DNA of 64,000 bases from Priestia megaterium NBRC 15308 = ATCC 14581 (GTDB lineage Bacteria > Bacillota > Bacilli > Bacillales > Bacillaceae_H), in the NCBI RefSeq assembly GCF_000832985.1, contig NZ_CP009920.1, positions 4,272,501-4,336,500 on the forward strand, written 5' to 3'. The notes beneath the pieces were generated by a model. That model saw only the letters and a program-made list of their open reading frames with translations, searched no databases and was not told the origin of the DNA. The position numbers were made by a program, and so were the translations under genes. Positions 13,021 through 63,739 of the stretch are shown here, one piece after another. Position 1 is the first letter of the stretch; each line of letters begins with the position of its first letter.

Positions 13021-13124
13021 AAAGTATTTTAGTTGAAGGAAAATCCGAACGATGAATCGAGGTTCTTCATTAAGAATCCAACTCGTTCCGATTTTTTCAT
13101 TGGCAAGGTGAACGTATGTCTCAA
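13021..13124 (+). repeat. Interspersed repeat copy 1 (decayed)
   Basis: Contains the family core: AGTATTTTAGTTGAAGGA, then a large hairpin opening with ATCCGAACGA and closing with ACTCGTTCCGAT, then GTGAACGTA. The outer inverted termini seen in other copies are lost. It sits just after a + strand gene and its hairpin, followed by T6, could act as the terminator of the lipoprotein gene. Confidence 0.75.
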
Positions 13125-13197
13125 TCTTATTTTTGATGTCTAAAAAAAGGAAAATAGTGAAAGGATGGTGATAAATAAGAAAAAGGAGGAATCACGG

Positions 13198-13788
13198 ATG
13201 CAAAAGTTGATAATGAACGGATGCGTAGTCTTTGTGCTGTTATTGTTAGGAGCATGCAGCATGGTAAAAGAGCAAAATAACGCTCATGAAAACCACCTGA
13301 AAATAGAGGAAGCGAAAGAAACAAGCGAAGTATCAGTAGAACCTGTTAAAGTGGATTTAACAAATACATCGGGCAAAAAAGTAGGAGAGGCTACCCTGTC
13401 AGAAGCAAAGAACGGCGTGCACATTAAATTAACTGCTCAAGGTCTTTCACCGGGGAGACATGGATTTCATATTCATGAAATAGGAAAATGTGAGGTGCCG
13501 GATTTTAAAACAGCGGGTGCCCATTTTAATCCTTTTAAACGTGAACACGGCCTTAAAAATACAAAAGGCCCGCATGCAGGTGATTTGCCCAATCTAGAAG
13601 TTGCTCCAAATGGCAAAGTAGATACAGAAATTTTTGCTTCTCTTGTCACGCTGCAAGAAGGAAAGCCGAATTCTCTTTTGGATATGGATGGATCGGCATT
13701 AGTGATACATGATAAAGTCGACGACTACACAACGGATCCTTCAGGAAACTCAGGAGATCGGATTGTTTGTGGAGTGATTATAAAATAA
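13198..13788 (+). CDS. sodC: Cu,Zn superoxide dismutase-like lipoprotein (SodC/YojM family)
   Basis: Lipoprotein of 196 residues; signal peptide with lipobox LGAC, Cys20. The SOD fold is recognisable from GRHGFHIHEIGKC to GDRIVCGVI. Predicted Cu ligands are H91, H93, H109 and H171; Zn ligands are H109, H117, H126 and D129; C98 and C191 can form the disulfide; the active-site Arg is in GDRIVCG. All seven metal ligands are therefore present, unlike B. subtilis YojM, which is known to lack two Cu ligands. The enzyme would dismutate superoxide outside the membrane. ATG at 13198 follows AAGGAGGA. Confidence 0.9.
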   Translation: MQKLIMNGCVVFVLLLLGACSMVKEQNNAHENHLKIEEAKETSEVSVEPVKVDLTNTSGKKVGEATLSEAKNGVHIKLTAQGLSPGRHGFHIHEIGKCEVPDFKTAGAHFNPFKREHGLKNTKGPHAGDLPNLEVAPNGKVDTEIFASLVTLQEGKPNSLLDMDGSALVIHDKVDDYTTDPSGNSGDRIVCGVIIK

Positions 13789-13792
13789 GCCA

Positions 13793-13823
13793 AAAAGCTG
13801 TGAGATCATTCACGGCTTTTTTA
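13793..13823 (+). terminator. sodC terminator
   Basis: Stem AAAAGCTGTGA/TCACGGCTTTT with one G.T pair, then further T residues. Confidence 0.85.
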
Positions 13824-13904
13824 TTTCAGTAACGAGCCGCTTCTAAATTGCGGTGAGCTTCTTTTTTTTGCACAATAGAAGAAAGAGCTAAAGAAGGTGA
13901 AAAC

Positions 13905-15392
13905 ATGCATAAGCAAGTTGTCGTAATAGGCGGAGGAATAGGTGGGTTAACAGCGGGAGCGCTTTTAGCTAAACATGACTATGAAGTGACGGTTTTAGAA
14001 GCTTCTCGAGAATGGGGAGGCTGTGCAGGGAAATTTCAGCGTCATTTGTATACGTTTCCTGTTGGGGCGACGCTTGGAATGGGATTTGAGCACGGAGGGA
14101 TACATGAGCGAATCGGCACGTACCTTGGCCTAGAAATTGAAAAGGTTTCTCTTGAGAAAATCATGAAAGTTCATCTTCCTCATCGTACACTGATTTATTA
14201 TCAAGACCGGTATCAGCATATTTCCTATCTCCAAAAACAATTTCCTCATAAAGCAAAAAATATTAGGAGTTTTTATGAAAATGTTTTTAGAATTGCAAAA
14301 GAAATTCGCAAGCTTATGCAGTCTCTGCCGGTTCTTCCTCCTCTAACAGTCGGTGAGTGGAGCAGGCTGGTAAGTTCGTTGAATGTTGGTTCTGTGAAGC
14401 TGTTGCCTTATTTTCATCAATCGTTTAGTTATTTACTAAAAAAACACAGCTTGTTAGACGAAGCGGACTTTCTTCATTTTGCTGATGGTCAATTAATAGA
14501 CAGCATGCAGACAACGAGTGAGAACTGTTCAATGCTTATTGGATGTTTAGCGTTAGATATTTATCACGAAGGTGCTTTTTATGTAAAAGGTGGCTTATAC
14601 AAAGTCGCAGAAGCGCTGCAAAAATCGATTAAAGTCAACGGAGGAAAAACGATTCTAGGAAGGAAAGTAGTAAAGATAGAGCGTGATAATGACGGGTGGA
14701 TCGTGCATGATCATAGAGGTAATCGTTACTGGGCATCAGACATTGTATGCAACGCGCCGGTTCAAAGCTTAAAGTCTTTGCTGCATGATGAAGATTACCA
14801 ACATATTCATAAGCGAGCAAAAGAAAAAAGCGAGCTTTCGCAGTGGGGAACGTTTTCGATGTATTTTGCGATTGATGAAAGAGATCTGCCGCAAAAGGTA
14901 GAGTTGTTTCATCAAGTACTTCAATCCGAACAAGGGGAAATGACGGAAGGAAATCATTTATTTCTCTCAGTCTCTCATCCTGATGATCGTTTTCGAGCGC
15001 CTGAAGGCAAGCGTACAATTACAGCGTCTACTCACATTGATCTTAGCAAGTGGAGTAACAAAGAAGCCTATGACCTTCAAAAACAAGTTCTTGAGAAAAA
15101 AATGGTAGCAGGCATTAAAACCATTATTCCTGGCATTGAAAAAGCAGAGCATCAAATTTCGGGAGCTCCTAAAGCATGGGAAAGGTTCACCTCTCGCCCA
15201 AACGGGGGAGTGGGAGGCTTTCCGCAAACTTTAGATCATGCCTTGTTCAACAGCATTTCGCATCGATCTGGCTTACAAGGACTGTGGTTATGTGGAGATA
15301 CAGTGTTTCCGGGAGCGGGAACTATAGGCGTATCGGTAAGCGGCTATCATGTGTTTCAAAGTATAACGTCTCATCGCCATACGTTACCTTAA
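13905..15392 (+). CDS. Phytoene desaturase-like FAD-dependent oxidoreductase
   Basis: Flavoprotein amine-oxidase/CrtI superfamily member of 495 residues. It has the N-terminal dinucleotide-binding motif VVVIGGGIGGLTAGALLA, then GGCAGKFQRH, and the C-terminal FAD-contact motif LWLCGDTVFPGAGTIGVSVSG. It falls in the COG1233 group, which covers carotenoid desaturases and isomerases, retinol saturases and hydroxysqualene reductases. No carotenoid synthase is adjacent, so the substrate is open. A terpenoid link to the cyclase at 53 kb is only a guess. AAGAAGGTG precedes the ATG. Confidence 0.82.
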   Translation: MHKQVVVIGGGIGGLTAGALLAKHDYEVTVLEASREWGGCAGKFQRHLYTFPVGATLGMGFEHGGIHERIGTYLGLEIEKVSLEKIMKVHLPHRTLIYYQDRYQHISYLQKQFPHKAKNIRSFYENVFRIAKEIRKLMQSLPVLPPLTVGEWSRLVSSLNVGSVKLLPYFHQSFSYLLKKHSLLDEADFLHFADGQLIDSMQTTSENCSMLIGCLALDIYHEGAFYVKGGLYKVAEALQKSIKVNGGKTILGRKVVKIERDNDGWIVHDHRGNRYWASDIVCNAPVQSLKSLLHDEDYQHIHKRAKEKSELSQWGTFSMYFAIDERDLPQKVELFHQVLQSEQGEMTEGNHLFLSVSHPDDRFRAPEGKRTITASTHIDLSKWSNKEAYDLQKQVLEKKMVAGIKTIIPGIEKAEHQISGAPKAWERFTSRPNGGVGGFPQTLDHALFNSISHRSGLQGLWLCGDTVFPGAGTIGVSVSGYHVFQSITSHRHTLP

Positions 15393-15432
15393 CATTTCTT
15401 ACATACAAACTACTATTGTTCATACTATTAAA

Positions 15433-15468
15433 AAAACACCGGCCCTATTACCATAGGGCCGGTGTTTT
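15433..15468. terminator. Bidirectional terminator
   Basis: A 15-bp GC-rich stem AAAACACCGGCCCTA/TAGGGCCGGTGTTTT with a 6-base loop lies between convergent genes. The stop of the minus-strand gene touches it. Confidence 0.93.
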
Positions 15469-16700
15469 CAGGAGAGGAACAGCTTCCACCACTTCCGTTT
15501 TCGCTTCATATCAGCAGCGGCGGTTTGTCTAAAGGTTTGGACAAAATCACTAAACATCTCTTCGCGTTCAGCTACGCTTTGACGATGGAGCTTACGCTCT
15601 TTCTCCATTTCTTTTAAATAATAGACTCGTTCCTCGTTCATTGAATCAATTAAATCACGAAGCTCTTCTGTCGTATTGGTTGAAGAATTGTTTAATTTTT
15701 CAACCATAAATTTTACTTGATTCATCGCAACGGTGGAATTACTGGAGAATCGATCTAATAAATACTGCATTTCTTTAGAGGATTCATCCGCATTCTCCAT
15801 GACATCTTTCATGAAAAGGCGCATATCCTCGGTTTTCTCTTCAGCGATTGTTGAATAATCTTCAATCAAAGAAGTGACTTCATCAAACGATTTTTCGTTA
15901 GAACGGATAATTTTTTTAGACATATTTTCTACATCTCTTGCGCTGCGTTCTGAAGACTCAGAGATATATGCCCCAACCGACTCCACCATTTCTACAGTTT
16001 GGGTAGCGCTTTTTTCAAGCTCTCTTTTTACTTCTCCGACAATTTCTTCGCGAACTTCATTTCGCATACCTTCTCGCATTTCTTTTAACAAATCAGCTTT
16101 AAATGTATCAAGCACTTCAAACACATCTTCATAGCGGCGAACAGCTTCTACTAATTCCCCTTGAAGCAGTTCTTTTTCATTCACAACAAGGTCGTTTGGT
16201 TTTGGCTCTTCAATAGAAGCAGAAATAGCCTGCTTTTCTTCTTCAGTAGCCAATCGTGCTTCAGGTATAGGAGGGGTCTTCTCTTGCTTATTTTCTGAAA
16301 TGCTTTCCTGCTTTTCAGCAGCTTTTTTCTTTTCTTGCTTCATTTGTTTATTGGAATGTTCTTGAAAATCAATGACGTTTTCTTTTTTAGCAGTTTTCAA
16401 CTGTGCCGGTTCTTCTTCTTTTGAAACCGCTGCCTCAGATTCCATCACTAAATGCTCCTGTTCTTCTTGTTCTTTTATCAGCAGCTGAACGTATTCTTTG
16501 ACTTCATCTAACGTACATTGTTCATCAAACAGCTGTTTAATATCATTAAATAATTCAATTTGTTCCTCTGTATAAACACGGGCACCATCTACTCGTTCAA
16601 TTGTTAAATAGCTGCCCAATAATTTTTCCCATTGTTTTAGCGTTTTCTTTTCTACCTCTAATTGATCACTTACTTTTTTAATTGTATATGTCTCCATCAT
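15468..16700 (-). CDS. MerR-type HTH protein with long coiled coil
   Basis: Protein of 410 residues. Residues 1-75 form a MerR-like HTH (YTIKKVSDQLEVEKKTLKQWEK ... RVYTEEQIELFNDI). A Lys/Glu-rich low-complexity stretch follows (about 85-165), then a long alpha-helical coiled coil (about 175-395). The C-terminus is strongly basic and aromatic (RKRKWWKLFLS) and could touch membrane. This build recalls RacA-type or DUF3967 MerR proteins, in which the HTH binds DNA and the coil anchors or oligomerises, rather than effector-sensing MerR regulators. GGAGGAAAT precedes two adjacent ATGs (16700 or 16697). Function is not established. Confidence 0.7.
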   Translation of the reverse strand: MMETYTIKKVSDQLEVEKKTLKQWEKLLGSYLTIERVDGARVYTEEQIELFNDIKQLFDEQCTLDEVKEYVQLLIKEQEEQEHLVMESEAAVSKEEEPAQLKTAKKENVIDFQEHSNKQMKQEKKKAAEKQESISENKQEKTPPIPEARLATEEEKQAISASIEEPKPNDLVVNEKELLQGELVEAVRRYEDVFEVLDTFKADLLKEMREGMRNEVREEIVGEVKRELEKSATQTVEMVESVGAYISESSERSARDVENMSKKIIRSNEKSFDEVTSLIEDYSTIAEEKTEDMRLFMKDVMENADESSKEMQYLLDRFSSNSTVAMNQVKFMVEKLNNSSTNTTEELRDLIDSMNEERVYYLKEMEKERKLHRQSVAEREEMFSDFVQTFRQTAAADMKRKRKWWKLFLS

Positions 16701-16929
16701 TTTTCATTTCCTCCCTTATCTATTTTCATCCAACTATGTAATGGATTATTTGTTGTATGTTGTATTCACCATATCTTCACTTGTTTTCCTGCTAGGTGAC
16801 AAAGGTTGTCAAAACTAGACGACATTAGCCTTCTATGTAAAGAAAACGCATATTTTGTAAAAAAATGTACATAAATGCGTAAATGGCAAAAATGGAAAAT
16901 ACAAAAGAAAAGAAGAGTATAGAAAACAG

Positions 16930-16992
16930 TTGACGGGAAAAAATGAATCCTATAAGATAAGTTTAAATGTTTAAGTTCTTGAACATTTAAAC
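16930..16992 (+). promoter_or_regulatory. Promoter and palindromic operator of the SDR-arsR-ALDH operon
   Basis: TTGACG at 16930-16935, a 17-bp spacer and TAAGAT at 16953-16958 form a sigma-A-type promoter. Immediately downstream, GTTTAAATGTT (16961-16971) and AACATTTAAAC (16982-16992) are perfect 11-bp inverted arms. A repressor bound there would block the start site. The ArsR-family gene in the same operon is the natural candidate (autoregulation, inferred). Confidence 0.7.
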
Positions 16993-17008
16993 ATAAGGAG
17001 TGAACACT

Positions 17009-17788
17009 ATGTCACAGCATTATGCGCTCATCACCGGTGCGTCGGGAGGAATAGGTAAAGAGTTAGCTTATCAATTCGCAAAGGATGGGCATCCTGTAAT
17101 TTTAGTTGCCAGAAGCGCTGATAAACTAGCGGCTATTGGAGAGAATTTAAAATCTACTTATAATATTGAAGTCATAACGGTTGTTAAGGATTTATCAAGA
17201 GAAGAAGAGATACAGTCATTATATGAAGAACTTAAAAATAAAAAAATGCACGTTGATTATTTAGTGAACAATGCTGGTTTTGGACTATACGGCAAATTTA
17301 TTGAAACAGCTTTAGATGAAGAGTTAAACATGATTGATTTAAATATTCGAGCATTAACTCATTTAACAAAATTATTTTTACCGGATATGATCAAAAGAAA
17401 TCGTGGGAAAATTTTAAATATTGCATCTGTTGCTGCATTTATGCCAGGTCCACTTATGACGGTATATTACGCAACGAAAGCGTACGTATTATCTTTCACA
17501 GAGGCCCTTGAAAATGAATTAAGAGGTACCAATGTAACGGTAAGTGCTCTATGCCCGGGTCCAACTAAAACGGGTTTTAGCGACCGAGCCCAGCTAAGCA
17601 ACTCCAAACTTTTTCAAAGCGGTGCAATGGATGTAGAAACAGTAACGAAAGTTGGCTATAAAAAATTTATGAAAGGGCAGACGGTTATCGTACCAGGAGT
17701 ACAGTTTCGTCTTGCTACGTTCATCCCGCGCTTCGTGCCAAGAAAGTGGCTTACATCCGTTGTCCGCAGAACACAAGAAATTAAATAA
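17009..17788 (+). CDS. Short-chain dehydrogenase/reductase
   Basis: Classical SDR of 259 residues. The cofactor motif TGASGGIGKE is at the N-terminus, followed by NNAGFG, the catalytic Ser region (NIASVAAFMPGP) and YYATKAY with the Tyr-x3-Lys pair. A C-terminal extension FRLATFIPRFVPRKWL is hydrophobic and basic, as in DltE/YqjQ-like SDRs associated with lipid or membrane substrates. The ATG at 17009 has AAGGAG eight bases upstream. First gene of a three-gene operon with an ArsR regulator and an aldehyde dehydrogenase; the substrate may be a long-chain alcohol, aldehyde or ketone (inference). Confidence 0.88.
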   Translation: MSQHYALITGASGGIGKELAYQFAKDGHPVILVARSADKLAAIGENLKSTYNIEVITVVKDLSREEEIQSLYEELKNKKMHVDYLVNNAGFGLYGKFIETALDEELNMIDLNIRALTHLTKLFLPDMIKRNRGKILNIASVAAFMPGPLMTVYYATKAYVLSFTEALENELRGTNVTVSALCPGPTKTGFSDRAQLSNSKLFQSGAMDVETVTKVGYKKFMKGQTVIVPGVQFRLATFIPRFVPRKWLTSVVRRTQEIK

Positions 17789-17800
17789 AGGAGAATCTAT

Positions 17801-18103
17801 ATGAGTGAAAAAGCAGTCGAGTTATTTCGTGCCAGCATTCCCATTTTTCAGGCTCTAAGTGATTCAGCAAGACAAGATATTATTTTGCTGCTCGCCGAAA
17901 AAGAGCCTTTAACCGTTAATGAAATTGCAAACGAGTCTACTCTATCACGACCGGCGATTTCTCATCATTTAAAAATTCTACGCGATCAAAAGCTTGTGCA
18001 AATTGAGCAAAAAGGAACGCAGAGATATTATTCATTAGCTTTGAATGAGGCAGTTGAGCTATTAAAAAACTTGCTTGCTACAGTTGAAGCCGAATGTTTA
18101 TAG
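17801..18103 (+). CDS. ArsR-family transcriptional repressor
   Basis: Winged-helix regulator of 100 residues covering the ArsR fold: FQALSDSARQDIILLLAEKEPLTVNEIANESTLSRP as helices 1-3, AISHHLKILRDQKLV as the recognition helix, then a beta wing with GTQRYYSL. No cysteine pair for metal binding is present in the usual alpha-3 position, so it is unlikely to sense arsenic or cadmium. It sits between the SDR and ALDH genes (12-base and 13-base gaps) and probably binds the palindrome upstream of the SDR gene. Confidence 0.9.
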   Translation: MSEKAVELFRASIPIFQALSDSARQDIILLLAEKEPLTVNEIANESTLSRPAISHHLKILRDQKLVQIEQKGTQRYYSLALNEAVELLKNLLATVEAECL

Positions 18104-18116
18104 GGAGATGAAAGGA

Positions 18117-19517
18117 ATGAACCACGAGCGATTCTATATCACAGATGAAACAGTCATTGAACATATTGTTTCTACACAAAAGCAGTATTTCTATGCGCAA
18201 AAGACAAAGAGTATCAGCAGCCGCATTCAAGCGCTGAATAAGCTAAGAGACGCAGTCAAACAAAACGAGCAGAGAATTATGGATGCTTTAAAACAAGATT
18301 TAAATAAATCTGAAGTAGAGGCTTACACGTCGGAAATTGGGATTTTACTAGAGGAGATTCGATTTACGCTTAAGCATTTAGCAAAATGGATGAAGCCTAA
18401 AAAAGTAAAAACTGCTTTAACACATGTGGGCTCTAAAGGGAAAATTGTTCCTGAACCGTATGGAGTCGCGTTAATTATTGCTCCGTGGAACTATCCGTTT
18501 CAATTAGCACTGTCTCCTTTAGTAGGAGCGATTGCTGCTGGAAACACGGCGATTATAAAACCTTCTGAATTAACGCCTAGCGTATCTCGCGTTATACAAG
18601 AATTACTGGCTGAAGCTTTTGACCCAGCATTTGTGACGGTGATTGAAGGCGCTGTAGAAACGACAAGCCTGCTTTTAAAACAGGCGCTTGATTATATTTT
18701 CTTTACGGGAAGTGTAAATGTAGGGAAAATTATTATGCAAGAAGCAGGGAAGCAGCTTATTCCAGTCACGCTTGAGCTAGGCGGAAAAAGTCCGTGCATT
18801 GTACATGAAGACGCAAACCTAGATCTTGCAGCGAAGCGAATTATGTTTGGTAAAGGGATGAATGCAGGCCAAACGTGCGTTGCTCCTGATTATTTGCTCG
18901 TGCATAAAAAAGTGAAAGCGCAGCTTGTAGAGAAACTTCGCGAAGCAATTTCTCAATTTTACGGTAGTAATCCACTTGAAAGCAACCGCTACGGCCGTAT
19001 TGTCAGTGAGCGTCATTTTACTCGGCTAGTTGAGTTTTTAAAAGACGGAAATGCTATAGTTGGAGGCGGGTACAATAAAAACACGCTAACAATAGAACCT
19101 ACGGTGTTAAGTGAAGTAAGCTGGACATCAGATGTTATGCAAGAAGAAATCTTTGGGCCTATTCTTCCTATGATTGAATATGAAACACTAGACGAAGTCA
19201 TTCATAAAGTTCAAGAAAAAGCTAAGCCGTTAGCTCTTTACTTATTTACAGAAAGTGAAGATGTGCAAAACGTGATAACGGAGCGCCTTTCATTTGGAGG
19301 AGGCTGTATAAACGATACGCTTATGCATATCGCTACGCCATATTTGCCGTTTGGCGGAGTGGGAGAAAGCGGCACGGGTCAATATCATGGAAAAGACAGC
19401 TTTCAGACATTCACTCATTTTAAAAGCATGCTGTCTCAAACAACCAAGTTTGATTTGTCATTCCGCTATCCTTCGGAAAAACAAAGCTTGAAAATGATCA
19501 AAAAATTATTGAAATAA
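18117..19517 (+). CDS. Aldehyde dehydrogenase (class 3/YwdH-like)
   Basis: NAD(P)-dependent aldehyde dehydrogenase of 466 residues. Landmarks are APWNYPFQLALSPLVGAIAAGN, FTGSVNVGKI, the catalytic-base region LELGGKSP, and the nucleophile Cys in NAGQTCVAPDY. The C-terminus is hydrophobic and basic, which in class 3 enzymes can mediate membrane association and fatty-aldehyde use. I chose the ATG at 18117, nine bases after AGGGAG; an in-frame ATG at 18108 is too close to it. Together with the SDR it could oxidise an alcohol through an aldehyde to an acid. Confidence 0.9.
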   Translation: MNHERFYITDETVIEHIVSTQKQYFYAQKTKSISSRIQALNKLRDAVKQNEQRIMDALKQDLNKSEVEAYTSEIGILLEEIRFTLKHLAKWMKPKKVKTALTHVGSKGKIVPEPYGVALIIAPWNYPFQLALSPLVGAIAAGNTAIIKPSELTPSVSRVIQELLAEAFDPAFVTVIEGAVETTSLLLKQALDYIFFTGSVNVGKIIMQEAGKQLIPVTLELGGKSPCIVHEDANLDLAAKRIMFGKGMNAGQTCVAPDYLLVHKKVKAQLVEKLREAISQFYGSNPLESNRYGRIVSERHFTRLVEFLKDGNAIVGGGYNKNTLTIEPTVLSEVSWTSDVMQEEIFGPILPMIEYETLDEVIHKVQEKAKPLALYLFTESEDVQNVITERLSFGGGCINDTLMHIATPYLPFGGVGESGTGQYHGKDSFQTFTHFKSMLSQTTKFDLSFRYPSEKQSLKMIKKLLK

Positions 19518-19520
19518 AAG

Positions 19521-20314: not shown

Positions 20315-20337
20315 GCAAAGGACAGTAAAAAACTGAA

Positions 20338-20430
20338 CATTGCCACTTTCCTACGCTGGTATGAGCCAGATCAGGTTCAAAGGGATCAAGAAAACTTGTC
20401 TCAGCCGGTGGCACCCCTAGTGGACTTCCT
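20338..20430 (-). ncRNA. TPP riboswitch controlling tenA
   Basis: The minus strand carries the TPP aptamer signature in order: AGGGGTGCC, GGCTGAGA, CCCTTTGAACCTGATCTGG, and ATACCAGCGTAGGAAAGTGG. These form the pyrimidine-sensing CUGAGA bulge and the pyrophosphate-binding arm. The terminator about 25 bases downstream indicates transcriptional attenuation by thiamin pyrophosphate. Confidence 0.96.
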
Positions 20431-33023: not shown

Positions 33024-33183
33024 AAGAGGATGGGACAAAAGTATTTTAGTTGAAGGAACATCCGAACGAGGAATCAAGATTCTTGATGAAGAATCCAACT
33101 CGTTCGGATTTGTCATGGTGATGGTGAACGTAGGTTTCGTATATGTAGTTGCTTCAAGCGGTTGATTTAGTTATGTCTCCACC
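33024..33183 (+). repeat. Interspersed repeat copy 2 (short form)
   Basis: Starts GAGGATGGGACAAAAG and ends TTATGTCTCCACC, which are complementary termini. Inside are TATTTTAGTTGAAGGA, a hairpin with arms ATCCGAACGAG and CTCGTTCGGAT enclosing a second dyad (TCAAGATTCTTGATGAAGAA), and GTGAACGTAGGTTTC. About 160 bp, directly after the GNAT stop codon. Confidence 0.85.
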
Positions 33184-33290
33184 TATTTATTTTTTGTTTT
33201 GTCATAATTCATATAAAAAGGTATAAACTAGGTTTTTTCACTAGACAAAAAGGTTTTTCCTATGTAGTATAGGTGTCAGATAATACAAAA

Positions 33291-35318: not shown

Positions 35319-35448
35319 ATTATTCTTTTAGTAAAGGTGTAAGGTTTACAATGGTACTCAGCCTATAGAGAAGCTTTATTTTATCGGCAAAATAGTGAAA
35401 TGGTTGCAAATAAAAAAGGTTAATAGTAAACTTTATACGTAACAAGAA

Positions 35449-35540
35449 TAGTATGGGAGCTTGTGCGGGGCAGGCTGAGAGTACAGGGACGCCTGTTGAC
35501 CATTTGAACCTGTTGGATAATGCCAGCGCAGGGAATGTGA
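35449..35540 (+). ncRNA. TPP riboswitch controlling thiM-thiE
   Basis: Plus-strand TPP aptamer: GGGAGCTTGTGCGGGGC, GGCTGAGAG, GACCATTTGAACCTGTTGG, ATAATGCCAGCGCAGGGAA. It precedes an intrinsic terminator and thiM, giving thiamin pyrophosphate-dependent attenuation. This is the second TPP switch in the window, on the opposite strand to the tenA one. Confidence 0.96.
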
Positions 35541-35549
35541 GTACATACC

Positions 35550-35580
35550 AAAGCACTTTGCGCATGCAAGGTGCTTTTTT
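35550..35580 (+). terminator. Riboswitch-controlled terminator before thiM
   Basis: Stem AAAGCACTTTGC/GCAAGGTGCTTT with GCAT loop and T6, 13 bases after the aptamer. Confidence 0.92.
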
Positions 35581-37687: not shown

Positions 37688-37843
37688 AAAAAATAAGCCC
37701 GCACTGCCGTAACCCTAAGTGTCTTAAATACCCAGATCTACTAGGTGGGTGCCCTCATAGCCGGGTTTAGCGTCCCAAGAAGGGCGTGCTATCTGCAGCT
37801 AAATTTTGAGCTCCCTTTTAACACTCAAAGGTTTAAGACAACA
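37664..37843 (-). ncRNA. Structured RNA candidate (family not identified; 6S-like outline possible)
   Basis: GC-richer, non-coding island in a 430-bp gap. On the minus strand TTGTTA (37871-37876), 19 bp and TATACT (37846-37851) could start an RNA near 37840. A long-range helix pairs 37837-37841 with 37704-37708 and 37820-37833 with 37711-37723. Inside are hairpins at 37768-37791 (TAGC...GCTA with a CCC/GGG stem) and 37730-37750 (ACCCA/TGGGT). A terminator follows the closing helix. It is either a stand-alone RNA of about 180 nt or a cis-regulatory leader of the stress-protein gene. GGGTTACGGCAG recalls 6S RNA, but I cannot confirm this. It matches none of the TPP, SAM, T-box, FMN or lysine patterns. 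Confidence 0.45.
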
Positions 37844-37978
37844 TGAGTATACGCACAGCGCAGGTATGTATAACAAATGTAAATAAGATGCCGATATATA
37901 AATGTTTTCTAATTAATCAACTTTCATCGTACAAGAAATGATTATAACGGAATAATGAATGGAACGCAAGACTTTTAT

Positions 37979-39208: not shown

Positions 39209-39356
39209 GAGGCCGAGACGTAACGACATCACTGCATATATGAAACCTACGTTCACTCTATCCATAAAAAAAATCCGAACGAATTTGATTCTCTATCAAG
39301 AGTCTTGATTCATCGTTCGGATTTTTCTTCCACTGCTATACTTTTGTCTCAGCTTC
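39209..39356 (-). repeat. Interspersed repeat copy 3 (short form, reverse)
   Basis: Termini GAGGCCGAGACGTAA and TTTTGTCTCAGCTTC are inverted. Inside are GAAACCTACGTTCAC and the hairpin arms AAATCCGAACGA and TCGTTCGGATTT. It lies exactly between the XRE stop and the convergent anti-sigma stop codon, which overlaps its last base. Confidence 0.85.
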
Positions 39357-40546
39357 TACTGATTCATTAAGGTACCTGATGAGGGACGACTGAACCAATT
39401 CCATAGTTCTACATCTCCAAGTGACGCATATGTGATCGACGGATCATTTTTTAATTTCAGAAGCTTTTTTGTAGGCCCTGTAATCACAACGCCGTACACG
39501 CCGACGCCATGTTTTTTTACATAAGAATATCGCTGCTTTAGCAACAGATCAGAATGGTCTAGCTGACGAACTTTTTGGACCGTTTCTTCATTATCGGCTA
39601 ATAGTTTCATCATATTTAAAACGTTCGACTTGCTAGTAGAGTGGGTTTGATTTCCTTTGTGATCGTAAGGTAAGTCTAAAAACTCTGGAAAGCCAAAGGT
39701 TGATGTTAAGTCAATTAATGGCTCATCTTTTGTGCTTGTTTTTTGTTCGTGCCCTGTATTAAGCGCGTACCAAGAGGTAGAAAAATCACGGCTGTCGATG
39801 ACGTTCATTTTTTGCTGAACTTCTTTTAGCGAATACGTATCATCAAAAGAAATAGCCACTTCGCTCACCGTTCCTTTTGGTAGATTTTCTAACGCTTTCC
39901 ATGTTTCGTTTGTCCATTGCTTATACTCTTTTGCATGTAGCTTTAGTTTTTTGGGATCAGGATAGACAAAAGAAAGGTTAAGGTCGTATTTGCCGCCGGA
40001 GAATTCTTTTTCTACACCGCTTGTTTTATCAAACAGCTGATGAAATGTAAACGTCCCAATGGCCTGCTCTTCACGTCCAATTTGCTTATAAGCTTCCATT
40101 TGCGACTGCATGCGGAAAAAGGACTGTGTATCAGAAGTGGTTTCACGTATATGAACGTTCGGAAAAGCAGATTCGATAGCCGCTTGATTCACGCTGTTTA
40201 TGTATTCGGTTTTTGATTGATGATAATATACAATAGATAAAAAGCTGCCGATTATCCATAGCAGAACGACAGAGCCAATGACAGTTGTCACATTTGAAAG
40301 GCGCTGCTTCCATTTGGCGATATAAATGGACTTTTTAACTTTTTTATTATCCAACATCGTATCGTCACTTAGTGAAGTAGCTGATGAAGTTGGCGGTAAC
40401 GGTTCATCTTCGGTTAGCAAGTGCTCCAAATGAGCTGAGCATGCTTCGCAATTTTCCGTATGTTCTTCAAGTGCTTCTGCTTCTTTGTCTGTCAAAGTGC
40501 CGTTTTTATATTTTTCCCATTGATGCTTCATATCTTGACAGCTCAT
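39356..40546 (-). CDS. Anti-sigma factor, zinc-finger, single-pass membrane
   Basis: Protein of 396 residues. The N-terminal ZAS-type zinc site is HTENCEAC (His-x3-Cys-x2-Cys), one TM helix lies at about 88-110 (VTTVIGSVVLLWIIGSFLSIVYY), and an extracytoplasmic sigma-factor-regulator domain follows. It overlaps the ECF sigma gene by 4 bases, the usual layout for a cognate pair that holds the sigma factor at the membrane until an envelope signal releases it. The signal is unknown. Its stop codon coincides with the edge of repeat copy 3. Confidence 0.9.
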   Translation of the reverse strand: MSCQDMKHQWEKYKNGTLTDKEAEALEEHTENCEACSAHLEHLLTEDEPLPPTSSATSLSDDTMLDNKKVKKSIYIAKWKQRLSNVTTVIGSVVLLWIIGSFLSIVYYHQSKTEYINSVNQAAIESAFPNVHIRETTSDTQSFFRMQSQMEAYKQIGREEQAIGTFTFHQLFDKTSGVEKEFSGGKYDLNLSFVYPDPKKLKLHAKEYKQWTNETWKALENLPKGTVSEVAISFDDTYSLKEVQQKMNVIDSRDFSTSWYALNTGHEQKTSTKDEPLIDLTSTFGFPEFLDLPYDHKGNQTHSTSKSNVLNMMKLLADNEETVQKVRQLDHSDLLLKQRYSYVKKHGVGVYGVVITGPTKKLLKLKNDPSITYASLGDVELWNWFSRPSSGTLMNQ

Positions 40547-52763: not shown

Positions 52764-53016
52764 GAAATTGAGACACAACTACGTCCATCGAATCTCAAGA
52801 CAAACAAATGGGATCAATGTGCTAGTGTGGAGTGCTTGTTACACCGCGGTTGATTTCCGTGCAAGACTTGGCTTCCCATTAACTGCTCTACATATATGGA
52901 GCAAGCCTACGTTCATCCTACAAATAAAAAAATCCGAACGAGTTGGATTCTCAAGCAAGAATCTCAATTCATCGTTCGAATCTTCCTTCAGCTAAACTCC
53001 TTTTGTCCCAGCCTTT
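52764..53016 (-). repeat. Interspersed repeat copy 4 (long form, reverse)
   Basis: Left end TTGAGACACAACTACG, right end CTTTTGTCCCAGCC. Between them lie a central module (GGTTGATTTCCGTGCAAGAC), CCTACGTTCATCC, and hairpin arms AATCCGAACGAG and TCGTTCGAATC. It ends at the stop codon of the cyclase gene. Confidence 0.85.
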
Positions 53017-57591: not shown

Positions 57592-57614
57592 TTTCTTCTG
57601 GATTATTAAAATTT

Positions 57615-57668: not shown

Positions 57669-57704
57669 TTTACGTAAGATTTTACATAGAAAGAAAGTGA
57701 TGTT

Positions 57705-57983: not shown

Positions 57984-57986
57984 ACA

Positions 57987-58022
57987 AAAAACGTGTTCGC
58001 CAAAAAGGCGGACACGTTTTTA
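57987..58022. terminator. Bidirectional terminator
   Basis: A 15-bp stem AAAAACGTGTTCGCC/GGCGGACACGTTTTT with a 5-base loop. Confidence 0.92.
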
Positions 58023-58913
58023 TTAGGAAAGAGAAACGATTTGCTTGGTTACATAGGCAGCTTCTCCTGCGATTACCACACCATACGTATTCTCTTTTTT
58101 TGTGATTTCTACATGAACGAAGCCATCTCTATCTATTTCCTGCCCTTGTTCAATCACAAATTGCCAGCGGTCGGTTTTTTGTTGATCCACATATCTCGCA
58201 TAATAGGCGCCCATTACGCCAGAAGCTGTTCCCGTTACAGCATCTTCTACCGTACCCGAAAATGGTGAAGAGAAATGTCTTCCGTGCATATGAGCTTCTG
58301 GATGGATCGTGTCAAAACAAAAGGGATGAATAGATGCTTTTGGCATATCAGTTAAAATATGAGGGAAATCTTCTTGATTAGGCTTCATCTTTTTACAGGC
58401 ATCTAAATTTTTTAAAGGTACAAGAAGCGTCCAGTTTCCTGTGCTTCCATATACAATAGGAAGTGTTTGATCAAGGTCATCAATATGAAGATTAAGAGCT
58501 TTTGCCAGTTTTTCTTTTGAACCTGAAAACGGATGAAACTGCGGAGAAGCTTGACTCATGGTGATAACAGGCTGTCCGTTTCTGCTCTGTACCGTCATCG
58601 GCAAAATTCCAGCATTTGTTTCCACTGTAAATGTAGTTTTTGGAAGTTTATTTTTACTATGTAAAGCATAAAGAGAAGCGACGGTCGCATGGCCGCACAA
58701 ATCTGCTTCTTGTCCGGGCGTAAAGTAACGAATTCGTAAATCAGCGCGGAAAGACTTCATGATAAAAGCCGTCTCGTTAAACTGTGCTTGATAAGCAATC
58801 TTCTGCATTTCTTCAGCTGAAAAATCATCTCCGTTAAACACAATTCCTGCAGGATTTCCTTTATTAGGGAGCGTGCTAAACGCGTCGTATTGATATACAG
58901 TCGCTTCTTTCAT
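58023..58913 (-). CDS. PhzF-family isomerase
   Basis: Protein of 296 residues in the PhzF/diaminopimelate-epimerase-like fold. YQYDAFSTLPNKGNPAGIVF, AQFNETAFI (catalytic Glu), RYFTPGQEADLCGHATVA, and EDAVTGTASGVMGAYY are typical. Most Bacillus PhzF-like proteins have no known substrate, and no phenazine genes are present. ATG at 58913 follows GGAGGT. Confidence 0.9.
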   Translation of the reverse strand: MKEATVYQYDAFSTLPNKGNPAGIVFNGDDFSAEEMQKIAYQAQFNETAFIMKSFRADLRIRYFTPGQEADLCGHATVASLYALHSKNKLPKTTFTVETNAGILPMTVQSRNGQPVITMSQASPQFHPFSGSKEKLAKALNLHIDDLDQTLPIVYGSTGNWTLLVPLKNLDACKKMKPNQEDFPHILTDMPKASIHPFCFDTIHPEAHMHGRHFSSPFSGTVEDAVTGTASGVMGAYYARYVDQQKTDRWQFVIEQGQEIDRDGFVHVEITKKENTYGVVIAGEAAYVTKQIVSLS

Positions 58914-59059
58914 AGAAATTACCTCCATTTTTATATCATTGTATGAAAGCTTTACCCAGTGTGTTATTAAATGATCGCCTATTAAAATAGGGAAGTACGT
59001 GAACGTTATTTAGAATAAAAAAACAGTAGTTTTTACCTGCTGCTTTTCACTTCGCAAAA

Positions 59060-59716
59060 CTATTCTTGCATCGCGGCATTTATTCCTTCTTTTCTAATTT
59101 CTAGCATATGAGTAGCTTTTTTATCAATATCTTTAGCTGTATCGGAAGAAATGACGCCTACGCTGCTTAAGTCATAGGCAAGACTTGTAACAAGCAGCTG
59201 CTCTCTTTGTGCTAGTGTGCCGTATGTAAGTGCAGCGGTTTTAGCTTGAATGCCACTCATATTTAATTCGTCAGTAGAAGAAGCTGCTTCTTTTTTTGCA
59301 GCTATTGCTTCTTGATAAAGAGAATCATATCCTCCAAACCCTACTTGGGCAATTAGAAAGTTATAAATGTCATCGGCCGATTTTTTAGAAGGCTGAGAAA
59401 AAGCTCTTTGAAATTTATTGCGCGGTAGAAAGTTTAGTGCCGCCTGTCTTCCATCTTCATAAATTTTTTCTTGTATTTCTTTAGTAGCTTTTTCGTCGGT
59501 TTTTTTCTGTGCTGCATCTAGCTGTTTGCGATATTTTTGAATAATGACCCCGTCCTGCTGATTGTTCCCCTCTTTGAAAGTAGCTGCGGCTTGTGGAACA
59601 TCTGACGTTGCTAGCGTCTCAGCGGCGTTCTCTGAAGAAGAAAAGAACGTATTTTTAACAAAAATAAGTGCAAAGATCAACAAGATAAACCATAAAAATC
59701 TGAATTTCTTAAACAA
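59060..59716 (-). CDS. Membrane-anchored hypothetical protein (218 aa)
   Basis: N-terminal signal anchor (FKKFRFLWFILLIFALIFV, no lipobox or clear cleavage site), then a soluble, helical, Lys/Gln/Ala-rich extracytoplasmic domain (KYRKQLDAAQKKTDEKATKEIQ ...). The likely start is TTG at 59716, eight bases after AGAGG; a GTG at 59725 overlaps that site. I do not recognise the family. Confidence 0.72.
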   Translation of the reverse strand: MFKKFRFLWFILLIFALIFVKNTFFSSSENAAETLATSDVPQAAATFKEGNNQQDGVIIQKYRKQLDAAQKKTDEKATKEIQEKIYEDGRQAALNFLPRNKFQRAFSQPSKKSADDIYNFLIAQVGFGGYDSLYQEAIAAKKEAASSTDELNMSGIQAKTAALTYGTLAQREQLLVTSLAYDLSSVGVISSDTAKDIDKKATHMLEIRKEGINAAMQE

Positions 59717-59889
59717 AATGTTCACCTCTGTATAATACTTCTAAATTATGTAAAACAACATGGACCAGTATACAACAATTTTAGTGTTTTTTTACACATT
59801 TACCCAAAAATAAGAAAATAGTAAGAGGTGGTTTTATTAATCTAATAGATATATAGGTTCATTGTTATGGTTCTAAAGAAACCATTGAT

Positions 59890-60663
59890 CTATTTGTACT
59901 GATTTACATAATCAAATATGTTTTTGCTAATAAGGCTTAAAGTGACAAGGATAAAAAGCGTTCGGACGTACGTCACGCCTTTTGATAGAGCGACATTTGA
60001 CCCGACAAAAGAACCCGCGATCATCGCAACCCCCATAATTAATCCGTAAGAAAATACAACAGAATCGAAATATAAAAACACAAGCAAAGCACCTAAGTTA
60101 CTGCCGAAATTTAAAAATTTTGCGCTGCCTGCTGACTGCAGGAAATCAAATCCCATAAATAAAAAAGCAAATAAAATAAATGAACCTGTGCCTGCTCCTA
60201 AAAATCCATCGTAAAAGCCAATAATAAAAATAAGTGCGGTAAAGAAAATAAGTTTCTTAATAGACAGCGGCTTATACGTAGACGTGGTGCCCCAGTTTTT
60301 TTTGAAGATTGTATAAATAGCAACTAAAACAAGGAGAATCAAAATAACAGGTTTCAAAAAAGCAGAGGATAGAAAATGAACGGTGATTGAACCTCCTAAA
60401 GAACCAATAAATACAAAAGGAAACCATTTACCTACGACGCGAAAGTCGACTTTTCCGGATTTTACAAATCGAATGGTACTCGTTAATACGCCCATCGTTC
60501 CGGCTAATTTATTTGTAGCTAAGGCAGCAGCGGGAGGCAGGCCTAAAAATAAAAGAGCAGGCGTTGAAATTAAACCGCCTCCGCCAACTACAGAGTCAAT
60601 GAATGCGGCTAAAAAACCAAATAGTAAAAGCAAAAGAACAATCTGTAAACTTAATTCTTCCAT
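59890..60663 (-). CDS. TauE/SafE-family sulfite/anion exporter
   Basis: Membrane protein of 257 residues with about eight TM helices. FGFLAAFIDSVVGGGGLISTPALLFLGLPPAAALATNKLAGTMG and its C-terminal echo GFYDGFLGAGTGSF are the two TauE/SafE repeats. Substrates in the family include sulfite, sulfoacetate and other organic anions. Divergent from a TrmB-type regulator, with a palindrome between the genes that may control it. Confidence 0.92.
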   Translation of the reverse strand: MEELSLQIVLLLLLFGFLAAFIDSVVGGGGLISTPALLFLGLPPAAALATNKLAGTMGVLTSTIRFVKSGKVDFRVVGKWFPFVFIGSLGGSITVHFLSSAFLKPVILILLVLVAIYTIFKKNWGTTSTYKPLSIKKLIFFTALIFIIGFYDGFLGAGTGSFILFAFLFMGFDFLQSAGSAKFLNFGSNLGALLVFLYFDSVVFSYGLIMGVAMIAGSFVGSNVALSKGVTYVRTLFILVTLSLISKNIFDYVNQYK

Positions 60664-60689
60664 AAAGCACCTTCCTCATGTCATAATAT

Positions 60690-60715
60690 ATAGTGACTAC
60701 TTAAATAGTAACTAT
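60690..60715. promoter_or_regulatory. Palindrome between tauE-like and trmB-like genes
   Basis: ATAGTGACTA (60690-60699) and TAGTAACTAT (60706-60715) are inverted arms with one mismatch, and lie in the divergent promoter region. The TrmB-type regulator next to it is the candidate binder. Confidence 0.6.
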
Positions 60716-60785
60716 ATAAAAAGCAGTTGTAAATATGTAAATGATAAAAATTTCAAATAACTTAAAAAACAGGGAGGTTTCCTTT

Positions 60786-61553
60786 ATGGAAAATATTATT
60801 CAGCAGCTGCAGTCGCTTGGATTTAATCAGTATGAATCAAAAGTATACGTGACGCTTGTCAAAAAAGGATCTTCCACTGCTTATAGCATTAGTAAACATT
60901 CAGGTGTGCCAAGAGCGCGTGTATACGATATTTTACAAACACTAGAGGAAAAAGGCATGGTGTTAAAAGAAGAGAGTAATGATGGCACCCAGTACACGTC
61001 GTTGCCCGTCGATGCTTTTTTGCATTCGCTGCAAAAAAAATGGAACGAAACGTATGAAGGCGTTAGCGAAACGCTTAAACGTCTTGAAGCTGCAGAGTCT
61101 ATAGAAGAAAGCCGGGTTATGACGATGAAAGGAGAAAGAGCCATTCTTGCTTTTTGTGAGTCGCTATTGTTAAAAGCAAAAAATAAAATTGTCATCTCGC
61201 TTTGGCCCGATATTTATAATGAGTTGAAGCCTCTTTTATTACAGCTAAGGGAGAGCGTCACACTAAAAGGAATTGTGTTTGAACAAGATGAAGCGATGGA
61301 GGAATTTGACCGGCACCGCCATACAAGCTATACCGAAAACATTGGGAATCAAAACTGGTTTATTATATCTGTTGACAGCAGTGAAATGATTTATGGTCAT
61401 AAAGAAATGGCGTACTATACAAATAACGCAGTCAACATTAATTTACTTGAAAATTATATTTGGCATGATATTCTCGTTAACAGACTTGTAGAAAAAAGTG
61501 ATAGAGAAATGGACAGGTGGATCGAAAAGGAAAGAGAAAGTTTTTTTGCGTAG
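60786..61553 (+). CDS. TrmB-family transcriptional regulator
   Basis: Regulator of 255 residues: a winged HTH at about 1-75 (LGFNQYESKVYVTLVKKGSSTAYSISKHSGVPRARVYDILQTLEEKGMV) and a C-terminal phospholipase-D-like TrmB sensor domain from about 105 (MTMKGERAILAFCESLLLKAKNKIVISLWPD). ATG at 60786 follows GGGAGGT; the upstream extension from 60741 is rejected. Divergent from the TauE/SafE gene, its probable target. Confidence 0.9.
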   Translation: MENIIQQLQSLGFNQYESKVYVTLVKKGSSTAYSISKHSGVPRARVYDILQTLEEKGMVLKEESNDGTQYTSLPVDAFLHSLQKKWNETYEGVSETLKRLEAAESIEESRVMTMKGERAILAFCESLLLKAKNKIVISLWPDIYNELKPLLLQLRESVTLKGIVFEQDEAMEEFDRHRHTSYTENIGNQNWFIISVDSSEMIYGHKEMAYYTNNAVNINLLENYIWHDILVNRLVEKSDREMDRWIEKERESFFA

Positions 61554-61554
61554 A

Positions 61555-61908
61555 AAAGAGACTTAGACATAACGAAATCACTTCCATCGAAAGACGAACA
61601 AACGGGATAAATGATCTAGTATGAATGGGTTGTTACATCGCAGTTAATTTCCGTGCAAGGCTTCGCTTTCCGCGGCCGGCCGATGAGCCTCCTCGTCGCT
61701 TACGCGCCTGTGGGGTCTCATCTGTTCCGCTTTTCCCGCAGGAGTCTTCGCCTTGCCCTCCAATTAACTACTGGAAGCAGCCACCATGCATGAAAGCTAC
61801 GTTCGTCCTACCAACAGAAAAATCCGAACAAAGTTGATGCTCCATTAAGAGTCTCGAGTCCTCGTTCGGATCTTCCTTCAATTAAAATATTTTTGTTACA
61901 GCCTCTTT
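61555..61908 (-). repeat. Interspersed repeat copy 5 (longest form, reverse)
   Basis: Ends AGAGACTTAGACATAACG and TTTTGTTACAGCCTCT. The middle contains GTTAATTTCCGTGCAAGGCT as in copy 4, plus an extra GC-rich block of about 90 bp (CGCGGCCGGCCGATGAGCC ... TCCCGCAGGAGTC) absent from copy 4, then GCTACGTTCGTCC and hairpin arms AATCCGAACAAAG and CCTCGTTCGGAT. It fills the whole 358-bp gap between two converging genes. Confidence 0.85.
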
Positions 61909-61911
61909 ATA

Positions 61912-62538
61912 TTAAAAAGTTTGGGCAAGTTTTTTTGCTTCTGCTATTCCTTTTTCTTTAATTTCTTGGGCTTTATCTGGCATTGCGTTATGCCCTTCCA
62001 CAAAAATGCCGTCTAACGAAGGTACTCCGAAGAAATTCATCATAATCCCAATATAACGATGCCCCATTTCCATATCAGCTGCAGGCCCTTCAGAATAAAT
62101 GCCTCCGCGCGCTTGAATATGAAGCGCTTTTTTATCCGTTAATAGCCCAACCGGACCCTCTGCCGTGTATTTAAATGACTTACCCGCTACGGCTACAGAG
62201 TCTAAATAGGCTTTCATAACCGGTGGAAACGAAAAGTTCCACATAGGCGTTACAAAAACATATTTGTCCGCTGATACAAACTGTTCGCTCAATTCTGCAA
62301 GGCGATTGACCTTCTCCTGTTCATGAGAAGAAAGTTCAGAGCCAGACTGAAGTTTGCCCCAGCCGCTAAATACATCCGCATCAATATGAGGAATATTTTC
62401 TTTATAAAGGTCAATATGTACAACTTCGTCACTTGAATTGTGCTCTTTGTAAGCATCGATAAATGCTTTTCCAGTTGCCATACTGAATGATTGAGACTCA
62501 TCGTGAGGATGAGCTGTAATATAAAGTACTTTTGCCAC
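61912..62538 (-). CDS. azoR: FMN-dependent NADH-azoreductase
   Basis: Flavodoxin-like quinone/azo reductase of 208 residues: [20 protein letters not shown] binds FMN phosphate, [32 protein letters not shown] and [15 protein letters not shown] are typical of AzoR/AcpD. It reduces quinones and azo compounds with NADH, and in Bacillus such enzymes protect against quinone and thiol stress. Start is GTG at 62538. No MhqR-like regulator is adjacent. Confidence 0.92.
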
Positions 62539-62735
62539 GTCTTATCATCTCTTTCTTGTTTGGAATAATGTACTGTCTTATCGTTATCACTCCTATAAAA
62601 AACTATACGCGCTTTGTCAGGAAAGCTAAAAAAGAACGCAAGAAAGGGATGTCTATATAGAAAATAATGGTATAATAAATGTTTGAATATTTACATAACA
62701 AGTATGTTTAACAGAAGTGAATAAGAGGTGTCGAG

Positions 62736-63455
62736 ATGAAAGAAAAATGGATAATCGTTACGGGTGCAGGTTCTGGAATTGGCAAAGAAATTGTAAAAGA
62801 GTGTGTGTCGAAGGGCTATTCAGTTATTGCTTGTGATATTAACGATGGAGCTTTGAAACAGCTAGCTGAAGATACAAAGGGCCATATTGAAACACACGTA
62901 GTAGATGTAAAAAAAGGCAACGATGTAAAAGATCTTTTTTATCAAATAAAAGATAAAAGCTTGTATGGGTTAGTTAATAATGCAGGCGTGTATTTAGGGA
63001 AAAATTTATTGGACTATGAAGAAAATGAAATAGATTTTGTAATGGATATTAATATTAAAGGATATGTTTATTTCTCCAAGTACTTTGGCGAAGTATTAAT
63101 GAAAAAGGAAGTAGAAGGAGCGATTATTAATATATCGTCCGTGTCAGGAATGGAAGGAAGCTCCGATGCTATATATGGAATGTCTAAAGCAGCAATACTA
63201 GGATTAACTAAGAGCTGTGCAATGAATTTTTCTCCTTATATCCGGGTGAACGCCGTAGCACCTACAATGGTAAATACCGATATGATGAAAAATATTCCAG
63301 AGTGGCGCAAAAATGAATACATCGCTCATCAGCTGATTCCAAGCTTTGTTACGCCTCAAGACGTGGCAGATACGGTTCTTTTTTTACTGAGCCCTCAAGC
63401 AAAACATTATACAGGAGCCACCTTCGATTTAAATAGCGGATGTTATTTACGATAA
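62736..63455 (+). CDS. Short-chain dehydrogenase/reductase
   Basis: Classical SDR of 239 residues with TGAGSGIGKE, NNAGVY, catalytic Ser in NISSVSGMEGSS and Tyr-x3-Lys in YGMSKAA. The C-terminal TGATFDLNSGCY matches FabG-like oxidoreductases. Substrate unknown. AAGAGGTGTCGAG precedes the ATG. The single-gene unit is followed by repeat copy 6. Confidence 0.9.
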   Translation: MKEKWIIVTGAGSGIGKEIVKECVSKGYSVIACDINDGALKQLAEDTKGHIETHVVDVKKGNDVKDLFYQIKDKSLYGLVNNAGVYLGKNLLDYEENEIDFVMDINIKGYVYFSKYFGEVLMKKEVEGAIINISSVSGMEGSSDAIYGMSKAAILGLTKSCAMNFSPYIRVNAVAPTMVNTDMMKNIPEWRKNEYIAHQLIPSFVTPQDVADTVLFLLSPQAKHYTGATFDLNSGCYLR

Positions 63456-63477
63456 ATTATCTTTTAAACGAGTAATC

Positions 63478-63739
63478 GAGGCTGGACAAAAATATTTTAG
63501 TTAAGGATAAATTCGAATGATCAATCGATATTATTGACTGACCATTCGGATTTTTTACTGTTATTATGAACGTGGGTTTCACCGCTTCTAGCTGTTGATT
63601 GGAGGGCAAGGTGAAGACTCCCGCGGAAAGCGAAGTCTTGCATGGAAATCAACAGCGGTGTCAAGAGCAATCCATATGAGTTTATTAATCCAATTTGCTC
63701 GTCTTTAGATTGGGTTAATTCCGTTATGTCCCATCCTCC
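63478..63739 (+). repeat. Interspersed repeat copy 6 (long form, forward)
   Basis: Begins GAGGCTGGACAAAAATATTT and ends TTATGTCCCATCCTCC: inverted termini. It has TTTTAGTTAAGGA, a diverged hairpin, GAACGTGGGTTTC, and the central module in the orientation opposite to copies 4 and 5 (CGCGGAAAGCGAAGTCTTGC, then GGAAATCAACAGCGG). Confidence 0.85.

Follow-up and report, generated by a model that had tools for sequence, protein, structure and literature searches.

The 64,000-nucleotide (nt) stretch of the Priestia megaterium NBRC 15308 chromosome analysed here (the window; positions 4,272,501 to 4,336,500 of contig NZ_CP009920.1) carries six similar non-coding repeats, which raises the question of what kind of element they are and how they come to occupy their sites. 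The initial annotation, made from the letters alone, had taken them for a miniature inverted-repeat transposable element (MITE) or a mobile structured-RNA element, and our analysis partly supports this interpretation. The two weightiest facts go beyond it: the copies lie directly after stop codons, and at their insertion sites a native hairpin has been replaced while no target is duplicated. Sequence comparison moreover demonstrates a family with defined ends, an orientation bias relative to genes, retention of the hairpin-bearing half and an architecture matching that of insertion sequences (ISs) of the IS1182 family. We hold with good confidence that the repeats form an IS1182-derived, IS1272-type MITE family which replaces the terminator that it destroys with one of its own.

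All six copies are present where they had been placed, and a profile search (nhmmer) recovers each of them, with E-values from 1e-77 to 4e-20 in 864 kb searched; the profile was built from seven copies, five of them from the window, which hence match partly by construction, and the copy at 13021 was left out of it. Of the bounds first proposed, 39209-39356 was kept, four others were refined, and the copy at 13021 proved to lack its left end. The copies and their internal hairpins are as follows (fold z-scores refer to the hairpins).

13021..13123, plus strand: copy 1, without its left end and with the right half deleted; hairpin core at about 13043-13094, fold -13.8 kcal/mol, z -1.95.
33026..33184, plus strand: copy 2, internal deletion with both ends retained and the T-tract interrupted; fold z -4.35.
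33060..33109, plus strand: example of the internal hairpin, ATCCGAACGAG..CTCGTTCGGAT, in copy 2.
39209..39356, minus strand: copy 3, internal deletion, between convergent genes; fold z -5.13.
52764..53015, minus strand: copy 4, GC-rich module partly deleted; fold z -5.31.
61558..61905, minus strand: copy 5, full-length, GC-rich module present, located between convergent genes; fold z -6.36.
61822..61871, minus strand: internal hairpin of copy 5, followed by TTTTT.
63478..63738, plus strand: copy 6, site occupied in 5/5 genomes compared; fold z -4.38.

A full copy consists of an A-tract, GAGGCTGGGACAAAA, a terminator-like hairpin with its T-tract, an optional GC-rich module, TTATGTCTCAAYCTC and a final T-tract. 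In its left part, the A-tract is followed by GAGGCTGGGACAAAAG, TATTTTAGTTGAAGGA and the hairpin ATCCGAACGA..TCGTTCGGAT, in place of which a second subfamily has the hairpin AACGAACCATTGATCAAGATGTTTGATTAGTGGTTCG, and then by the T-tract; 3' of this tract come GTGAACGTAGGTTTC, the optional module, TTCGTCTTTAGATTGGATT.ATTTCG, TTATGTCTCAAYCTC and the closing T-tract. The terminal inverted repeats that had been proposed are present but imperfect, and the two ends are not identical, the left one being GAGGCTGGGACAAAA and the right one, as reverse complement, approximately GAGRTTGAGACATAA. The left end GACAAAA has A in 52 of 52 left ends scored (five were not scored), and the right end, as reverse complement, reads GACATAA in 37 of 44 copies. 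As had been noted, the element has no coding capacity, containing neither a transposase gene nor any other gene of its own. Its length of about 100-350 bp, imperfect inverted ends, insertion polymorphism and ends resembling those of autonomous ISs likewise bear out the designation as a MITE. With one mismatch allowed, the GC-rich module GACTCCTGCGGGAAAAGCG (window about 61650-61790; loci L332-L340) was found in 41 genomes out of 120 of the order, also in genomes where the element's left half has no match (e.g., G054 and G026). Plasmids of other Bacillaceae carry it on its own, and it appears to be a separate repeat.

The family extends well beyond the window, contrary to the outcome by which the initial annotation would have been refuted, a genome scan without further copies. 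In the strain's own genome (G000, a 5.75-Mb assembly of seven contigs with the window inside the 5.34-Mb contig C6), a covariance model built from 17 copies gives at least 150 matches; 13 of these 150 are, by hand count, the opposite strand of another match, which leaves at least 137 distinct places as a lower bound. All 150 listed matches lie on C6, and none of them on the six other contigs (about 403 kb). In a contiguous 864 kb of the chromosome, the nucleotide profile detects 26 elements, or about 30 per Mb; extrapolated to the full 5.34 Mb, this density gives about 160 copies. Since the window is some three times denser than the chromosome average, the several hundred copies per genome expected from it were an overestimate. 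Outside this strain, the element, used as query, is matched over 48-99% of its length on four plasmids from other strains of Priestia megaterium, and one copy sits at a Priestia aryabhattai locus (L267); no match was found in phages. Along C6, none of the 150 listed matches falls at about 3.71-4.05 Mb or 4.54-4.88 Mb, and their strand is mostly minus, next mostly plus and next mostly minus, as expected if the elements follow gene direction.

The clearest view of how the element arrives comes from relatives in which a site is empty. We compared about 100 kb of synteny in four further genomes (G002, G006, G007 and G008), as well as 500 kb each of G007 and G008 with 864 kb of G000. The search for empty sites proposed in the initial annotation yielded 15 distinct polymorphic sites, at which at least one of the five genomes has the element and another lacks it, and in 14 of them an element-free genome has, at the position of the element, a native hairpin bordered by A- and T-rich tracts. 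A typical pair reads AAAAA-TCCCGTGCGTATATGCACGGGA-TTTTTTTT versus AAAAA-GAGGCTGAGACA...TGTCTGAATC-TTTTTTT. At 13 of the 14 sites the breakpoints agree within 3 nt in at least one genome pair; the exception is window site 33026, where G002 has GCCTTTTTAAAAGGC and where, in G006 and G007, the place is taken by 110-118 nt of different sequence that terminates in a GGC/GCC hairpin. The fifteenth site (G007 356499 / G008 358432) was counted as ambiguous; there G000 carries a different hairpin with ATCTCAGCTTC behind it, which may be a decayed element. Five of the six window copies have a native-hairpin counterpart, the exception being 63478, where every one of the five genomes carries an element; for copy 5, ACCCGCTTTATGCGGGT or a close variant stands in place of the element in G008, G002 and G006, and for copy 1 the native hairpin is held by G002, the orthologous element of G008 being longer. 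At this last site the insertion of the G000 type also lost neighbouring bases, and an insertion of opposite orientation in G006 removes only the 25-nt hairpin.

The replaced segments fold as hairpins by two measures. From 57 rows, each pairing an element with an empty genome, 42 passed a filter that required clean breakpoints and a segment of 10-70 nt. Of the 42 segments, 41 outdo 95% of their mononucleotide shuffles in folding, although the rows include several per site, are not independent and contain the ambiguous site. When the native hairpins were trimmed by hand, 13 of 14 beat at least 97% of dinucleotide shuffles, the exception again being 33026. The target-site duplications that had been suggested as a check were not seen at the element junctions, the hairpin being lost instead, as expected for the IS1272-type insertion mode; a canonical MITE with target duplication was hence rejected.

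Among the five genomes compared, gain of the element by replacement is the simple reading of these sites. The reverse polarity, in which the element would be ancestral and the short hairpins its remnants after deletion, draws on the fact that internal deletions do happen in place, but the short hairpins differ between sites, show no sequence relationship to the element and are not parts of it. Moreover, they are shared by the other genomes where a single one has the element, the ratio of native hairpin to element being 4:1 at G008 440777 and 3:1 at G002 4313 (it is 2:1 at G008 366881), and we consider this polarity very improbable. The element has also been placed both ways round at the same site: the copy at 13021 in G006 is opposite to that of G000, G007 and G008, the one at 52764 in G007 is opposite to that of G000 and G008, and at 63478 both G002 and G006 are opposite to G000, G007 and G008. 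Each case has the appearance of independent insertions into one and the same terminator.

The sites are, in addition, sharply defined relative to genes. Our context set comprised 54 copies of G000, namely the 26 in 864 kb and 28 at other loci, the latter taken for their top model scores or for an exact end and not drawn at random; genes were simple open-reading-frame calls, and two copies could not be classified, which left 52. A gene in the sense direction lies upstream in 50 of the 52, and in 42 the element starts within 25 nt of that gene's stop codon, with a median distance of 6 nt; in copy 3, for example, the left end directly abuts the TAG stop codon that closes the gene at 39356-40546. 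Of intergenic positions drawn at random and randomly oriented, only 4.1% fall within 25 nt in sense (the range being -25 to 25 for the observed count and -5 to 25 for the null) and 27.6% fall in divergent gaps. The arrangements observed were 31 tandem sense, 19 convergent, one tandem antisense and one divergent, and the divergent case probably reflects a missed gene, because a sense gene lies 28-29 nt upstream in both orthologues. Tandem cases in G008 and G007, which overlap with those of G000 by orthology, were 17 sense to none antisense and 14 to two, respectively.

What stands just inside the left end of the element has the features of an intrinsic terminator, i.e., a GC-containing hairpin followed by a T-tract and located 3' of genes. 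A terminator-like hairpin was found in the first 130 nt of 53 of the 54 copies distinct by place, the sole failure being copy 2, while 25 of 1,080 dinucleotide shuffles reached the threshold score of 10. The 53 hairpin sequences are all distinct, and pairing is nevertheless maintained: in the 17-copy alignment, 94.0% of cells pair, as against at most 61.4% when slid, and both sides change in four of 16 pairs, which none of 500 shuffles reached. The six window hairpins likewise fold with z-scores of -1.95 to -6.36. Hence, the hairpin probably ends transcription, a function predicted here from sequence features. Conservation of the hairpin and of GTGAACGTAGGTTTC behind it could also be expected of a regulatory RNA family, riboswitch-like or small RNA, rather than of a terminator. 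However, the element comes after genes and not before them, its conserved part lies beyond the T-tract, and neither the window copies nor four further loci contain any Rfam family at the gathering score; with the limit lowered to an E-value of 1 in L001, L004, L005 and L007, the last alone gave matches, three in number and each short of the gathering score, the best being mir-1255 with 30.4 of 63 bits. From position and the Rfam result we judged a structured regulatory RNA unlikely, indeed barely probable, and of the mobile structured-RNA element once suggested only the structured, terminator-like hairpin stands.

The two halves of the element do not decay alike. Left-half and right-half profiles, searched separately in G000, G007 and G008, gave 70 and 43 matches, respectively; 27 of the left-half matches lack a right half, and no right-half match lacks a left half. 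Three short copies of G000 (13021, 33026 and 39209) are long in G008 at the same site, so that the loss happened in place. This bears on what causes the orientation bias. Insertion chemistry, with a polarity from A-tract to T-tract, might by itself account for both the bias and the closeness to stop codons, the hairpin serving only to shield an IS from read-through and being neutral for the host; the hairpins inside both ends of autonomous ISs of this group, which resemble insulators, and the three sites occupied in both orientations are in keeping with such an origin. The one-sided decay and the maintenance of pairing while the hairpin sequence changes argue against it, and we regard it as rather unlikely, the bias being better attributed, in our opinion, to selection than to insertion polarity.

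Autonomous relatives provide a candidate source of the transposition activity. Among 299 genomes of the class, 78 contain the pattern AGAGGCTGGGACA, and seven, counted by eye, contain a single match to the reversed pattern, which served as control. In three genomes (G103, G118 and G255) it forms facing pairs at a constant 1.8 kb around genes matching the L167 transposase, and two scanned genes within GAGGCTGGGACA ends pass the NF033551 model (IS1182 family transposase) with 342.8 and 392.1 bits at a cut-off of 270. The left end of the G103 element consists of GAGGCTGGGACAAAAC, some tens of nt, and next a hairpin with a T-tract. In all five ISs delimited with such ends (L178, L179, L180, L365 and L371), our scan places a hairpin with a T-rich tail inside both ends; plasmid ISs of Mesobacillus, Cytobacillus, Terribacillus and Kurthia have the left hairpin in four of four cases and the right one in all three with a full right end, and other types of IS end gave mixed results (39 loci, several of which could not be delimited). 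The IS copies in G103, G118 and G255 have mostly A-rich and T-rich flanks, and no direct repeat was seen at their junctions. Moreover, the difference between left and right, ACAAAA/ACATAA, is common to G118, G255 and the four plasmid ISs, G103 having ACAAAA at both ends. Thus, the MITE resembles these autonomous AGAGGCTGGGACA ISs in its ends, its left-end hairpin and its mostly A- and T-rich flanks; they differ from it in carrying a transposase gene and, where this was seen, a second hairpin inside the right end, and no shared internal sequence was found.

A transposase with matching ends, which the initial annotation had recommended looking for, therefore exists in the IS1182 family of other Bacilli, but none above the cut-off was found in G000. 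Among ten genomes of the genus, only G001 passes the NF033551 cut-off, its IS1182-family element having ends of another type; matches and fragments in G003 and G005 fall short of that cut-off. At an E-value of 0.001 there was none in G000, G002, G004, G006, G007 and G009, and a single match of 19.6 bits in G008. A mobiliser inside the host genome was accordingly dropped, neither transposase similarity nor the family model having revealed one in G000. The MITE right-end sequence, sought in 120 genomes of the order, has matches in three (G000, G005 and G378), with the transposase in none of the 15 loci. The absence of a transposase above the cut-off from the element-rich genomes studied suggests that the family is an orphan there or is moved by a transposase of other strains. 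Ectopic copying between terminators, by template switching or gene conversion through homology of the A- and T-tracts, would require no transposase, and it fits both this absence and junctions that keep only the A- and T-rich tracts without duplication. The specific ends of the element nonetheless match IS1182-family ISs, in most of them down to the difference between left and right; homology that short would be expected to spread ordinary terminators as well (an expectation only), and IS1272 achieves the same outcome with a transposase. We thus find copying of this kind improbable.

In the model that we prefer, terminator exchange by an IS1182-derived MITE, the transposase would have come in trans from an autonomous IS that is absent from the matches in present-day G000 and would recognise the ends GAGGCTGGGACAAAA and TTATGTCTCAACCTC; an IS1182-type enzyme is the presumed mover on the strength of these ends. 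Its target would be short inverted repeats with the potential to extrude as cruciforms, which in practice means intrinsic terminators, and the element would be joined at the feet of the hairpin, which is lost, the flanking A- and T-tracts staying in place. Because its own hairpin and T-tract lie just inside the left end, an insertion in the sense orientation would restore 3'-end formation to the gene whose terminator was destroyed, and such an insertion would consequently be tolerated or kept. Later deletions could then take the right half, the hairpin half staying. Several observations weigh against this model. G000, G002, G006, G007 and G008 have no IS1182-type transposase over the NF033551 cut-off, and no autonomous IS sharing the right-end sequence of the MITE beyond the ends was found in the 120 genomes of the order. 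No copy was observed in the act of transposition; in the stretches examined, the closest paralogues with a length of 230 nt or more share only 68-91% identity. The orientation bias is not absolute, given two antisense copies among the 16 tandem cases of G007 and three sites with opposite orientations in different species. Furthermore, covariation in the hairpin is modest (five changed cells of 248), and a consensus terminator scan with loops of 3-8 nt found none of three element hairpins in two stretches, which it misses because their loops are longer.

Replacement of stem-loops is already published for the staphylococcal elements IS1272 and TnSha1. These members of the IS1182 family target hairpins, often terminators, which are wholly or partly deleted upon insertion without target duplication; IS1272 was found in both orientations at one target, and directly downstream in four cases near genes (PMC4923244, PMC5678879). 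The MITE is like them in replacing hairpins without duplication, in occurring in both orientations at a site and in lying 3' of genes. It is unlike IS1272, which is autonomous and present in 14 and 15 copies in two genomes, in being non-coding and in exceeding 100 copies. The available text of PMC4923244 and PMC5678879 makes no mention of a terminator carried by the element, and the word terminator is absent from that of the latter. Other bacterial MITEs, among them BOX and RUP of pneumococcus and Nezha, are likewise non-autonomous, have terminal inverted repeats and are thought to be moved by IS transposases (PMC3049150, PMC10969869), but BOX and RUP, unlike the element here, duplicate their target (PMC3049150). 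We found no description of hairpin replacement by BOX, RUP, Nezha or other MITEs in the accessible parts of these two sources, and IS1182 is not mentioned in those of the MITE review (PMC10969869). A closer parallel in form is SPRITE of Streptococcus pneumoniae, a small dispersed repeat of 30 copies that resembles a Rho-independent terminator, with AAAA/TTTT terminal repeats around one 18-bp stem; it is enriched near 3' ends and between convergent genes, and its co-option as a terminator was suggested, but no easily comparable empty site was found and no insertion mode was hence established (PMC3049150). The present MITE, the ends of which are GAGGCTGGGACAAAA and its imperfect complement, falls outside the definition of SPRITE, as far as the published description goes, by which alone the two were compared.

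No account of this MITE family was found in the literature searched, which left out most subscription journals. Within the same limits, what appears to be new is a non-coding, high-copy version of hairpin replacement with matched before and after sites, as well as a substitute terminator-like hairpin in the MITE and in the autonomous relatives examined. With more than 100 copies and 14 before/after sites, target choice, junction precision and selection become measurable. The family offers a possible mechanism for terminator turnover between species, by which a mobile element destroys a terminator and brings a substitute, and it suggests that other terminator-like repeats, SPRITE for instance, are worth re-examination for hairpin replacement. 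We give about even chances to a broader proposal, namely that a lineage of IS1182-type elements and MITEs across Bacilli lives by terminator exchange, excising the host hairpin and supplying its own, so that transposition would be nearly neutral and the host made dependent; in Priestia, more than 100 gene 3' ends would thus have been rewritten, with domesticated terminators left behind after loss of the transposase.

A few observations were made alongside. Three IS1182-family loci with ends like CAGACTGTAGACAAA (L346, L350 and L358, in G227, G058 and G198, respectively) have a full copy of the same hairpin on both flanks, the stem-loop thus being duplicated rather than replaced, in agreement with pathway b as drawn in PMC5678879; L347 and L359 have ends like CAGACTGTAGACAAA without a duplicated hairpin. 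Several Streptococcus species (L215, L220, L222, L226 and further loci) have another short repeat, which begins with AAAAAGAGGCTGGGACAAAAGTCCTAGCCTC, often shows a second end about 145 nt further on, and is possibly a parallel MITE of the same IS type. Finally, the Rfam families found above the gathering threshold in the window itself were 6S RNA (37692-37869, minus strand) and two thiamine pyrophosphate (TPP) riboswitches (20331-20428, minus strand, and 35443-35551, plus strand).

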